Assembly (NCBI GenBank): GCA_030685015.1
Contig: JAUXWS010000085.1
Span: forward strand, 1 to 15,910
Length of the DNA: 15,910 bases
Source of the DNA: a bacterium
GTDB lineage: Bacteria; CAIWAD01
Direction: 5' to 3'
Position numbers and translations under genes: made by a program. The notes under the pieces were generated by a model, which did no database searches, was not told where the DNA came from, and saw nothing but the letters and a program-made list of their open reading frames with translations. Shown piece after piece: positions 8,044 to 15,910 of the stretch. The first letter of the stretch is position 1. Each line of letters begins with the position of its first letter.

Positions 8044-9495
8044 TCAACGGCGCCAGAAGTGGCGGCTGAAGACGACCAGGACGGTGAGGAACTCAAGGCG
8101 TCCCAGCAGCATGTCGGCCGTCAGGAGGAGCTTGATGTCGGCGCCCAGGTGGGCGTAGTTGCCCATCGGTCCCATCCGGCCCAGTCCTGGGCCCGCGTTG
8201 GAAAGGCAGGCCGTCACGCCCGCCACCGCTTCGTCAAAGGCACAGCCCTGCCAGGCCAGGTACAGCGTGCTGATCCCCCAGAAACAAAAGTAGAAACCGA
8301 CGAGGGCCATCACGTCGAGGATCAATTCGTTGCCCAGCGTGCGGCCACCGAAACGGGCGGGCGAAATGGCCTGCGGTTGAAGGGTGCGGCGCAGCACCTT
8401 GCGCAGGATGGCCAACACCATCCCCAGCCGGATCGTTTTCAGTCCACCGGAGGTGGAACCCGCCATGCCGCCCACCACCATGAGTCCCACCAGCGTGAGG
8501 CCGGCGAAGGAGGGCCACAGGTTGTAGTCCTCCGTGGCGAAGCCGGCCGTGGTGAAAAGGGATGCGACCTGGAAGGCGCTTGCCCGCAGGGCGCGCGACC
8601 ACTCCCAGCCCAGTTCGCCGATGAGCAGGATGCCGATGAGGACGGTCGCGGCGACGAAGAGGCCGAGAAAGAGACGCAGTTCCCCGTCACGCAACACGGC
8701 GCGCCAGTCCCGCTTTCTCACCAGGATGTAGTAGAGGGTGAAGTTGATGCCCGAAAGCAGCATGAAGACGGTGATGACCCACTCGATGGCCGGACTGGCG
8801 AAGGTGGCGATGGAGGTGTCTCGGGTGGAGAATCCGCCCGTGGCGATGGTGCCGAAGCTGTGGGCCACTGCGTCGTAGAGGTCCATCCCGAAGAGCCAGA
8901 GCAGGGCGGCGCAGGCCACGTTAAGGGACAGGTAGACGATGAGCAGGATGCGCACCGTGTCCTTCAGCCTCGGAGTCAGCTTCTCGGCGATGGGTCCGGC
9001 GGCCTCCGCGCGGAAGAGCGACATGCCGCCAGCGCCCATCATGGGCAGGATGACGAGGGCGAAGAGCACGATGCCGAAGCCGCCCACGAAATGGGTGAAG
9101 CAGCGCCAGAAGCCCACGCCGCGGCTGAGGGCGGAAGGTTGGGTGAGAATGCTGGAGCCAGTGGTGGTGAAACCGCTCATGGACTCGAAGAGGGCATCGG
9201 TGAAGGCGGGAACCTGTCCGGAAAGCACGAAGGGCAGGGTGCCAAACAGGGCCATGAGCAGCCAACTGAGGGTGACGGCGGCAAAGCTCTCGCGCACGGT
9301 CATCTCGCCCTGGACCCGTCTTCCCGCCAACACGGCGGCCGCACCCGTCCCGGCGGTGATCAGCGCGCTGCCCAGCAGGGCGACGCGATCTCCCTCGCCG
9401 TGATAGCAGAAGCTTATGGCCAACGGGATCAACATGGCTACGCCCAGACAGAACAGCACCCAGCCCAGGAGTCGTCCAATGCGAAGTACTTTCAT
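8044..9495 (-). CDS. trkH: TrkH-family potassium uptake pore protein, copy 2
   Basis: This 483-aa protein aligns along its length with the 482-aa trkH copy next to it. The filter loops read TTTGSS (110-115), ATGGFST (218-224), TTAGFAT (315-321) and SNAGPG (432-437); the glycines are kept, but loops three and four differ from copy 1 (TTTGFST, SNIGPG). GGMAGSTSGGLK (342-353) matches the conserved segment of the family. It is an inner-membrane K+ uptake subunit expected to work with TrkA. The ATG at 9495 lies four bases after the trkA stop, so it is surely co-transcribed with trkA and is the copy physically closest to it. The tandem arrangement suggests an old duplication with divergence, since the two proteins differ at many positions. 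Confidence 0.95.
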   Translation of the reverse strand: MKVLRIGRLLGWVLFCLGVAMLIPLAISFCYHGEGDRVALLGSALITAGTGAAAVLAGRRVQGEMTVRESFAAVTLSWLLMALFGTLPFVLSGQVPAFTDALFESMSGFTTTGSSILTQPSALSRGVGFWRCFTHFVGGFGIVLFALVILPMMGAGGMSLFRAEAAGPIAEKLTPRLKDTVRILLIVYLSLNVACAALLWLFGMDLYDAVAHSFGTIATGGFSTRDTSIATFASPAIEWVITVFMLLSGINFTLYYILVRKRDWRAVLRDGELRLFLGLFVAATVLIGILLIGELGWEWSRALRASAFQVASLFTTAGFATEDYNLWPSFAGLTLVGLMVVGGMAGSTSGGLKTIRLGMVLAILRKVLRRTLQPQAISPARFGGRTLGNELILDVMALVGFYFCFWGISTLYLAWQGCAFDEAVAGVTACLSNAGPGLGRMGPMGNYAHLGADIKLLLTADMLLGRLEFLTVLVVFSRHFWRR

Positions 9496-9499
9496 CCGA

Positions 9500-10846
9500 T
9501 CATCCGAAGTACTTCTCGAGGTCGGGCAGGCGCTCGTCGAGGGTGACCACCATCACCAGGTCGCCCGGCTCCACCTGGTCCTGTCCGCGGGGCACGAAAG
9601 CGGCGCCGCGGCGCTGGATGCCGGCCAGGAGCGCTTGCTCGGGGAGGTCGAGGCGGGCGATGGGCTGCTTGCAGAGGCGACTCTCCGGCGGAATGCGGAA
9701 GCTGGCGACAAGCGCTCCCGAGCCGGAGAGGGTGAGGCGCTGCTGCAGCTGGCCCACGCGGATGTAGCGCAGGATCTCCTGGGCGGCGATGAGGCGCTCG
9801 TTGATGCCCACGTCCAGGCCGATCGTCTTGATGATGGGCATGTAGTCCGCCCGCCGCACCAGCGTGATGGTGCGTTTCACCCCCAGGTGCTTGGCCACGA
9901 GGCAAGTGATGATGTTGTCCTCCTCGTCGCCGGTGAGGGAAAGGAGGACGTCCATGTCGCCCAGGGCGTGCTGGGCCATGGTGTCGATCTCCTTGCCCGA
10001 GGCGCTGAAAATGTCGATGCGGGGCAGGCGCTCGGCCAGGTCGTACTCGGAGATCCAGGTGTCGGTGTGGGTGGTGAAGAGCTTGACGTTGGCGCCGCCC
10101 ACTTTCTGCAGGTCCTCGGCCACCGCCACGGCGATGCGGCTGGAGCCGAGGATCATGACGTGGCGGCTGCGGGCGTCGGCGATGCCCGTCATGCGGAAGA
10201 TCTCGACGGAATCGCGCGAACGCACGGCGAAGGTGACGGTGTCCCCGGCGCGCAGCACGTCCTCTCCGCGCGGGATGCTGGTGAGGCCCTGGGAGACGCG
10301 CGCCACGATGCGGTAACTGATGCGGTCGTACTTCTGCGCCAGCTTGATCAGGTTGCGCCCGTCCAACGGGCCGCCCTTCTCCACGGTGAGGGAGATCATG
10401 CGGATCTGCCCGCCCAGGAAGTCGCTGTAGTCCTTGACAGCGCTGTGGAGCAGCAGGTCCATGATCGCCTTGGCCGCCGCCTTCTCCGGGTTGACGGTGA
10501 GGGTGGCCTGGCCCAGGCGCTTGATCTCCTCGGTCAGCTCGTCGCTGCGGATGCGGGCGATGCGATTGGCCACGCCCAGGCGCTCGCCGGCCATGCAGGC
10601 CAGCAGGTTGATCTCGTCGATGTTGGTGGCGGCCACCAGGTAGTCCGCGCCTTTGGCGCCGGCCTTCTCCAGCACACTCTGCAGGGTGCCGCTGCCGTGG
10701 ACGACGGCGATGTCCAGCTGGTCGGCCAGCTCCTGCAGGCGGGGGCCGTTCTGGTCGACGAGGGTGACGTCGACCTGGGTCTCGCGGCTGAGGACGCGGG
10801 CCAGATAGCTGCCCACGTCCCCGGCGCCGATGATGATGACTCTCAT
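9500..10846 (-). CDS. trkA: Trk system gating protein TrkA (two RCK units)
   Basis: The ATG at 10846 gives a 448-aa protein, the usual TrkA length, beginning MRVIIIGAGDVGS; a longer frame upstream is only the overlapping gene in another frame. There are two RCK_N-RCK_C units. The first has a complete Rossmann glycine motif, GAGDVG (7-12), and Asp31 at the end of strand two, consistent with NAD(H) binding. The second has the degenerate motif GSSRIA (244-249), common in second halves of TrkA. RCK_C domains lie at about 145-225 and 370-448. The protein forms a cytoplasmic ring that gates TrkH in response to nucleotides, and in some bacteria RCK_C domains bind c-di-AMP. It overlaps the upstream 190-aa gene in ATGA and precedes trkH copy 2 by 4 bp. 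Confidence 0.96.
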   Translation of the reverse strand: MRVIIIGAGDVGSYLARVLSRETQVDVTLVDQNGPRLQELADQLDIAVVHGSGTLQSVLEKAGAKGADYLVAATNIDEINLLACMAGERLGVANRIARIRSDELTEEIKRLGQATLTVNPEKAAAKAIMDLLLHSAVKDYSDFLGGQIRMISLTVEKGGPLDGRNLIKLAQKYDRISYRIVARVSQGLTSIPRGEDVLRAGDTVTFAVRSRDSVEIFRMTGIADARSRHVMILGSSRIAVAVAEDLQKVGGANVKLFTTHTDTWISEYDLAERLPRIDIFSASGKEIDTMAQHALGDMDVLLSLTGDEEDNIITCLVAKHLGVKRTITLVRRADYMPIIKTIGLDVGINERLIAAQEILRYIRVGQLQQRLTLSGSGALVASFRIPPESRLCKQPIARLDLPEQALLAGIQRRGAAFVPRGQDQVEPGDLVMVVTLDERLPDLEKYFG

Positions 10847-12806: not shown

Positions 12807-14015
12807 TCAGTAGTCGCCGGTCATGATCATGAGCGGCTTGGCCTCGAAGCGCTCGTAGACCGGCCGCAGGCGGTCCGTCGAGTAGAACTTGGCCACGTCC
12901 ACCAGCTTCTTGGTGCTGGTCACCACACCGATGGGCACGTGGTCGTAGCGGCCGTTGCGCACGCAGATGAGGCGCCCGTCGTTGCCGTCCAGGATGAGGT
13001 CCATGGCCAGGTTGCCGAAGGCCATGGGCACGATGGAGTCGGTGGCGTCGGGGTCGCCGCAGCGCACCAGGTAGCCCAGGCGCTGGTTGATCACGTTGAT
13101 GCGGCGGCCCTGGTTGTACTTCACCGACAACTCCTTCAGCTTGCTGCTGACCAGGTCGCCGACGCCGCCCAGCTTCTTGTGCCCGAACATGTCCTGCTCG
13201 TGGTTCTCGTAGGCCATCTCCTCCATGCCCTGGAAGCGCGCCCCCTCGCTCACCAGCGCCACGCTGTACTTGGAGGGGTTGGAGAAGCGGTCCGCCGTCA
13301 TCAGCTCGCAGAGGCGTTCGATGTCGAAGACATGCTCGGGGATGACGCAGCGGTTGGCCGCTCCCGCCATGGTGGGAAGCAGGGCCGTGTACCCGGCGTA
13401 GCGGCCGAAGACCTCCAGCACCAGGAAGCGCTCGTGGCTGCCGGCGCTGGTGCGCAGGGCGTGGGTCAGCTCGATGGTGCGCGTCACGCAGGTGGAAAAT
13501 CCGATGCAGTAGTCCGTGCCCGGCACGTCGTTGTCCATCGTCTTGGGGATGGCCAGGACCCTGACGCCCTCTTTGTGCAGGCGCACGCCGTAGGAGAGGG
13601 TGTCGTCGCCGCCGATGGGCACCAGGTGGTTGATCCCCAGCCAGGCCAGATTCTGAAGCACTTCCGCGGTCAGGTCGTTGGTCTCGGCGCCGTAGGCGTC
13701 CAGCAGGTGCTCGGGCACGTTGGCCTTCGGCACGTGGCTGGGCCGCGTGCGCGAGGTATGGAGGAAGGTGCCGCCCGTGCGCCCCACCTTGTTGACGATG
13801 TTCTCGGTCAGCTCGATGACGCACTCGCTGTTGTCGGCGCCCTTGTCGCGCTTCAGCTCGATCAGGCCCGCCCAGCCACGGCGGATGCCCAGCACGCGGT
13901 AGCCCTCGCGGATGGCCCGCACGGTGAGGGCGCGGATGGCCGGGTTGAGTCCCGGCACGTCGCCGCCCCCCGTCAGGATGCCGATCGTCCCCTTGTTCGT
14001 CTTCACCGCCGCCAT
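12807..14015 (-). CDS. Phosphofructokinase with PPi-type active-site signature
   Basis: The ATG at 14015, five bases after AAGGAG, gives 402 aa. The enzyme family phosphorylates fructose 6-phosphate to the 1,6-bisphosphate in glycolysis. Visible motifs are TGGGDVPGLN (15-24, phosphate-donor loop), IGGDDT (134-139), PKTMDND (157-163, catalytic Asp161/Asp163) and EVFGRYAGY (201-209, substrate binding). In ATP-dependent PFKs the donor site has Gly in GGDGS and Gly in PGTIDND; here they are Asp138 and Lys158. This Asp/Lys pair marks pyrophosphate-dependent enzymes (PFP), whose reaction is reversible. PPi use is therefore the best prediction, though annotation pipelines may just call it 6-phosphofructokinase. 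It appears monocistronic, divergent from the beta-helix gene, with a hairpin right after its stop. Confidence 0.93.
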   Translation of the reverse strand: MAAVKTNKGTIGILTGGGDVPGLNPAIRALTVRAIREGYRVLGIRRGWAGLIELKRDKGADNSECVIELTENIVNKVGRTGGTFLHTSRTRPSHVPKANVPEHLLDAYGAETNDLTAEVLQNLAWLGINHLVPIGGDDTLSYGVRLHKEGVRVLAIPKTMDNDVPGTDYCIGFSTCVTRTIELTHALRTSAGSHERFLVLEVFGRYAGYTALLPTMAGAANRCVIPEHVFDIERLCELMTADRFSNPSKYSVALVSEGARFQGMEEMAYENHEQDMFGHKKLGGVGDLVSSKLKELSVKYNQGRRINVINQRLGYLVRCGDPDATDSIVPMAFGNLAMDLILDGNDGRLICVRNGRYDHVPIGVVTSTKKLVDVAKFYSTDRLRPVYERFEAKPLMIMTGDY

Positions 14016-14020
14016 GGCTG

Positions 14021-14186: not shown

Positions 14187-15898
14187 ATGCCTGTCTGCCT
14201 CCTGCTGCTTTGGATTGGCCTGGCTCTGGGCGCTTGGGCCAGTGTGCTGCGCGTGCCCTTCCCTTTCGGACAGATCCAGTGGGCGATCGACGCCAGCCAG
14301 GCCGGCGACACGGTGCTGGTCGAGCGCGGCGTCTACCGCGAGCGGCTGACGATCCCTGTCCACGACTTGACGCTGGCCTCGCGCTGCCTCTACACTGGCG
14401 ACACGCTCGACATCGCCGGAACCATTATTGACGGCGAACTGGAGGGCACGGTGATCACCGTGCTGGCGGGCGAGCGGCTCTTCCGGCTGAACGGCTTCGT
14501 GATCACGAGGGGTTGGGCGGTCTTCGATACAACGGTCACGGGCGGAGGAGTCTGGGTTCAAGAAAGGGCGGACATCCAGTTCGAGAATCTCGTGTTCACG
14601 AACAATGGAACGGAATTCGGAGCGTTTGGGGCCGCCGTGTGCGGCGGCTTCCCTTTCAACGAGATCGGTTCCGCCAAGATCCACAATCTGCAGATCACGG
14701 ACAACAACCACCTGCCCGGGTCGCACTGGGAGCCGGATAACTACGCCTTCGCCCTTCGCGGAACCGGGCGGTTCGAAGTCTCCAACATATTCTGCAATGG
14801 GGCAGGACTCAACGATCCGGCCTTCTTTGTCGCCAGCTACGACAGCCTGTTCGCCGACTCGATCCGCGTGGTCGGCTATGTCGGCAACTTTGCCTCGGTG
14901 TGCGGTCTGCGGAGTTCGGTGCATCTCGATGTCGAACACGTGCGCATCCTGGATACATTCGTTGGCGAGTGCGGCAGCGGTTTGATAAGGAACTAAGGAA
15001 CTGTCAGTTCATTCGTAACAACCGATTTGCACTGTGGTATTACTCGTTCGACGATAGTGGAACAGTACGGTTGCAGAATACGCTATTTACCGGAACAAGA
15101 ATGCAAGAGTTTTATCTTCCTTATCCTCAGTTGCAGGGTGTATTCTCAATTCACAGTTACAATCTCAACGAGGGGTCAATAACTGAAAACGTAACTGTAA
15201 CAGCCTGTTCGACGGCTTCTGCATTAGGTCTAGGATCGAACACACAAGGTCCTGCTTTTGTGCGTAACTTGTTGTTCTGGGATAATACCTATGAGTCCTT
15301 CATCCGACCATATGGGTATGGAGATGAACAACCGGGCGCCTTCTCGTATTGTTTAGTAGACCACTTGCTCCCTGGAGCCGGCAATCTGGTCATAGATCCT
15401 CAGTTCGATGACCAACTGGGTGCACCCTGGTTGGGCGCTGCCTCGCCTTGCATCGATGCTGGCGATCCGAATCCTTTGTACAACGACATGGAAGACCTTG
15501 CCGCCCCCGCCTTCGCCTTGTGGCACAGCCAGGGCAGCCTGCGCAACGACATGGGCTTCACCGGCGGGCCGCGGGCCGCCGTCTTCGACACGGCCTGGGT
15601 GGCCCTGCCGCGCTGGGAGCCGCGCACCCAACCACAGGCCTTCACCCTGGGCGCGCCCTGGCCCAACCCCTTCAACCCGGTGACGCGCATTCCCCTCACC
15701 CTGCAACATCCCATGCCCGTCCGCCTCGTCGTGCACAACCTGCTGGGGCAGCAGGTGGCCGTCTTGGTGGATGGCCTCCTGCCGGCGGGCACGCATCACC
15801 TGCCCTTCCAGGCCGGACGCCTGGCCAGCGGCCTCTATCTGGTCACGCTGGAGGCGGCGGGGCGGGCGCAGACGAGGACGGTGACGCTGCTGAGGTAG
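14187..15898 (+). pseudogene. Secreted beta-helix protein with T9SS-type sorting domain, frameshifted
   Basis: The frame from ATG 14187 stops at TAA 14994-14996; the rest continues in another frame to TAG 15898. Deleting one copy of the 8-bp duplication at 14987-15002 joins the two into about 567 residues with no other stop. Residues 1-18 are a signal peptide. Next comes the parallel beta-helix opening typical of exported proteins (FGQIQWAIDASQAGDTVLVE), followed by many Asn-rich rungs such as FVITRGWA and LVFTNNGT. The joined segment GLIRNCQFIRNNRF is itself a good rung. Near 15445 is SPCIDAGDPNP, common at the end of such helices. The last 86 codons or so (from about 15638) form a FlgD-Ig/Por-type C-terminal domain (PNPFNPVTRIPLTL, then ASGLYLV), which directs type IX-like secretion or surface attachment. 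Ligand unknown. It could be inactive, or a short exported N-terminal fragment may still be made. Confidence 0.85.
14987..15002 (+). repeat. 8-bp tandem duplication causing a frameshift
   Basis: AAGGAACT occurs twice with no gap (14987-14994 and 14995-15002). The duplication shifts the frame by two and places TAA at 14994-14996. Removal of one copy gives ATA AGG AAC TGT CAG and a continuous beta-helix protein. Confidence 0.95.
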
Positions 15899-15910
15899 GG
15901 CAGTGGGCGG

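Follow-up and report, generated by a model that had tools for sequence, protein, structure and literature searches.

The gene at 14187–15898 of the window, the 15,910-nucleotide stretch of DNA analysed here, is probably a pseudogene, a paralog in decay whose compound lesion combines an internal deletion with an 8 bp duplication at or beside the deletion junction. A TAA codon at 14994 splits this copy, whereas the intact homologues are each read in a single frame (20/20 relatives). The window makes up contig C85 in full; the genome has 105 contigs and 3.6 Mb and is estimated to be 97% complete.

Two fragments of one secreted beta-helix gene

The features at the disrupted site are as follows.

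14187–14996, + strand: N-terminal fragment of a putative secreted right-handed beta-helix protein, assigned from its translation, the family profile and a NosD-like match
14987–15002, + strand: 8 bp tandem duplication, AAGGAACT twice, which shifts the frame and makes the stop TAA at 14994
14998–15010, no strand assigned: perfect inverted repeat GAACTG-T-CAGTTC (one-base loop) that reaches into the second repeat unit; a possible hairpin
15002–15898, + strand: C-terminal fragment, with the last beta-helix rungs and a domain resembling the Por secretion (type IX) tail, assigned from the profile and TIGR04183

The upstream frame opens with an ATG at 14187 and encodes 269 aa with a hydrophobic start before terminating at TAA 14994–14996. 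It covers positions 3–249 of the family profile (175 bits), and has a NosD-like beta-helix match (E 4.7e-5) together with a weak match to Beta_helix (PF13229). The C-terminal fragment comprises 298 codons (15002–15898) with no internal stop, and from its first residue matches profile positions 512–809 (394 bits). Both parts therefore belong to the family by their profile matches. Against the tail models, the C-terminal fragment scores 22.1 bits with TIGR04183 (E 1.1e-4, cut-off 23) and 15.8 bits with PF18962 (cut-off 27). The gene is similar to known proteins that combine a Beta_helix (PF13229) or NosD-like region with a Por_Secre_tail (TIGR04183/PF18962), in that its N-terminal half weakly matches the helix and its C-terminal half the type IX tail, but it differs in that all of its Pfam and NCBIfam matches fall under the curated cut-offs, and its family seems to be lineage-specific.

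The N-terminal fragment would be made as a truncated product. Downstream reinitiation was considered and rejected: the in-frame starts in the C-terminal frame are weak (TTG at 15071, ATG at 15101 and TTG at 15131), and no signal peptide was found in the C-terminal fragment. Lacking both a signal peptide and a good start, this fragment would not be secreted.

The tandem repeat and its position

The initial annotation described an exact 8 bp tandem at 14987–15002 and the stop that it creates, and both are confirmed, with TAA 14994–14996 separating the two fragments. Both units are exact, and counting the T before them the period-8 run extends to 17 bases (14986–15002). On the + strand, AAGGAACTAAGGAACT at 14987–15002 has a single occurrence in the window, as against none in 200 shuffles. 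For an exact 8 bp tandem of any sequence, dinucleotide shuffles give an expectation of 0.53 per window, and two were found. Exact 8 bp tandems as such are not rare; the placement of the one at 14987–15002 is not chance. The upstream and downstream open frames overlap only in the 256 bp from 14741 to 14996, so the frameshift must lie there, and about 0.01 frame-shifting tandems would be expected by chance within this overlap. A chance tandem accompanied by a frameshift elsewhere is therefore unlikely.

The second exact 8 bp tandem in the window, TCATCCGA twice, is at 9492–9507, where two potassium-uptake-like (TrkA/TrkH) genes of the minus strand meet. It covers the stop of one gene and the start of the other, and neither is broken.

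A multi-copy family of beta-helix proteins

Seven copies with the N-terminal half are present in the genome, including the window copy, and there are more at contig edges. The other six are on contigs C59, C81, C78, C34 (two copies) and C75. Relatives are common in the genomes nearest to this one, with one in LaPlata_bin-1558 (same genus) and many in 8_bin.8 (same family). In 20 distinct full-length relatives the family-matching region spans 787–835 aa; the family profile, fam20, was built from these and has 809 positions. All 20 are single unbroken frames, and the idea that two separate genes lie at this position, proposed in the initial annotation as a check on the broken-gene reading, can be set aside. 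The proteins seem, from sequence comparison, to form a multi-copy, lineage-specific family of secreted beta-helix proteins of about 800 residues with a type IX-like C-terminal tail. A full-length relative is predicted (mean pLDDT 75.9) to form a long beta-helix and, after it, a C-terminal beta domain. Its matches to solved structures are weak and of the beta-helix type (PL6 alginate lyase, tailspikes and pectin methylesterases), and for this reason no enzymatic function is claimed. A literature search found nothing on this beta-helix family or on two-unit 8 bp tandems.

No such gene lies beside pfkA (12807–14018 in the window) in the same-genus and same-family genomes (L073, L074 and L075), and the window copy (14187–15898) was therefore probably inserted in its own lineage. 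The end of the gene is closely similar to that of other copies.

15757–15898, + strand: 3' tail, shared at 92–97% identity with other family genes, of which several lie at contig ends

Across the family, the last ~140 bp are 92–97% identical while the upstream parts are far more diverged (L049, L050, L051, L052 and L072 are at contig ends). This shared tail looks homogenized or cassette-swapped, and contigs break there.

Loss of the middle of the gene

The two fragments total 567 aa, compared with 787–835 aa in the full-length relatives.

14958–14978, + strand: predicted point of the loss of ~255 residues (~770 bp), from a profile search with the joined reading and 12 resampled profiles

The window copy skips the profile from position ~250 to ~506, so that it lacks about 255 residues, equal to ~770 bp or about ten rungs. 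This is about a third of the family length of the gene, lost at the site of the repeat, and the copy does not contain a continuous family region of 787–835 aa with all core rungs. As a leave-one-out control, 20/20 relatives align as one domain with nothing skipped, in contrast to the jump of ~255 positions in the window copy. When the frames are searched separately, the upstream family match ends at about 14957 and the downstream match starts at 15002 or just before. Read as one, the fragments give a second match that starts at profile position 506, six residues earlier, and its score rises from 394.1 to 400.1 bits. The initial annotation had recognized a typical rung across the join, and this gain of ~6 bits bears it out; the ~255 missing residues could not be visible to it. 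When 12 profiles were each made from a random half of the family, they put the end of the first match at 14954–14960 and the beginning of the second at 14973–14982. The missing stretch ends 4–33 bases before the tandem.

Because beta-helix rungs are mutually alike, the deletion point is known to about 10–15 codons only. A first multiple alignment set both ends of the join on one mid-gene rung and left the gap unplaceable, so the profile search was used instead; in pairwise global alignments the gap was scattered and uninformative. Third-position GC drops from 0.81 to 0.46, with the best change-point at 14979 (support 14889–15053), but patches of differing GC occur widely in the family, which limits the weight of this change-point. 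A foreign origin of the AT-rich stretch at 14980–15470 is not needed, as most relatives have similar AT-rich patches.

Within the assembly the six other copies are the only places where the missing middle was found. Both flanks of the join are unique in the genome, so that the join is not shared with other loci. A chimera of two known paralogs was also rejected: the N-terminal part (23–34%) and the C-terminal part before the tail (30–48%) stand at about the same distance from every copy, the homogenized tail excepted.

The earlier view that a frameshift at the tandem breaks a single secreted beta-helix gene thus stands, but not the view that the lesion is clean, single and reversible, since ~255 core residues are also gone. 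They are absent at either number of repeat units, and gaining or losing a unit would not bring back a protein of family length.

Proposed origin of the compound lesion

The deletion point and the tandem lie within roughly 10–50 bp of each other, which makes a single event the most economical reading. A single error of replication or repair could account for both lesions, if it removed ~770 bp and copied the 8 bp beside the junction twice. The inverted repeat at 14998–15010 could have stalled synthesis, but the gene has 14 such repeats in all, and this one is of unproven significance and proves nothing. No Ku homologue was found in the genome; Ku-based end joining, the classical route in bacteria, is thereby rejected, and the event would instead have involved slippage or an alternative form of joining. 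The resulting gene is comparable with other pseudogenes of multi-copy secreted protein families, in which a frameshift and a large internal loss affect one copy and others are intact or carry a single nonsense mutation. It differs in that the frameshift is an exact 8 bp tandem beside the deletion, resembling a junction scar.

The lack of further stops in the C-terminal part shows that the frameshift is not old. The initial annotation went further and called the event very recent, for which the two identical 8-mers and the 298 open downstream codons offer weak support.

The main rival to this single-event reading is a sequence of two events, although it is judged unlikely. An older in-frame internal deletion would have produced a shorter, possibly working protein of ~570 aa, and a later 8 bp slippage beside the old junction would have broken the gene. 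The well-matched rung of the joined reading somewhat favours this deletion-first order, and the open downstream frame suggests translation after the deletion. Two lesions would, however, have to land within roughly 10–50 bp in a 1.7 kb gene, and there is no short in-frame member among the 20 full-length relatives. None of the relatives is near enough to reveal the ancestral sequence of the window copy, which bears on the choice between one event and two.

A less likely explanation again is that the assembler wrongly joined parts of one or two family members at the tandem, the true gene being of full length. Contigs do break inside family genes (C1, C17, C19, C34, C67, C75, C82 and C91), the window contig itself ends in the tail of the gene, and the join is exactly where sequence is missing. 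The end of the window nevertheless gives some indication of how the assembly was made.

15780–15910, no strand assigned: overlap at the contig end; the same 131 bases open contig C67 in this genome

C67 has a metallophosphoesterase-like gene at its start. Contigs C17 and C19 likewise have a common 141-base start. Shared contig ends of 131–141 bp would be the mark of a large-k, short-read graph (de Bruijn) assembly, which should need reads across the join and for which the 16 bp repeat is far shorter than k. An overlap error, as suggested initially, would require an 8 bp join, which is not expected of such an assembler. There is also no orphan middle segment in the bin. Misassembly is disfavoured by these marks of graph assembly, by the presence of the core in the six other copies only, and by the uniqueness of the flanks.

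Three further explanations are much less probable. It is very doubtful that the family varies the length of its beta-helix through deletion of whole rungs, the tandem being a passing off state from which a new short variant can revert to a working short protein. A phase-variable switch, with slippage between one and two 8 bp units turning the protein on and off, is more improbable still. A two-unit tandem can in principle drop one unit, and contingency loci (simple-repeat phase variation) similarly have a short tandem repeat in a coding sequence that alters the frame. In the window, by contrast, there are two units only, the other family members have no tandem at this position, tandems of period 8 or more are few and scattered in the relatives, and the protein is also deleted, so that even its 'on' state would be without about 255 residues. 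The on/off switching put forward in the initial annotation accordingly finds no counterpart in the family. The least credible proposal is the footprint of an excised mobile element: although adjacent identical 8-mers resemble an empty site that has kept both target copies, the stretch missing beside the repeat is conserved family coding sequence and not an element, no family member has an insertion at the tandem site, and a search of the genome for transposases of ISL3 and IS66, two families associated with 8 bp target duplications, found none.

Signs of decay within the family

A second copy in the genome is also broken. On contig C75, an in-frame nonsense codon, TGA (L047:2590–2592), occupies a position at which the closest paralog, C34a, has TGG; the remaining codons are in frame up to the contig end. 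Two of the seven copies with the N-terminal half are therefore disrupted (the window copy and that of C75), and in the same-family genome the members are nearly all long open frames. These broken copies fit relaxed selection on redundant genes, and redundancy within the family would allow a broken copy to be tolerated.

The site also carries a caution. A short frame-shifting tandem looks cleanly reversible when a gene is viewed alone, and it is the comparison with paralogs that reveals a larger loss at the same point. If the window copy is the decaying paralog that it appears to be, it would represent gene decay in progress within a secreted-protein family that has expanded in an uncultured bacterial lineage.
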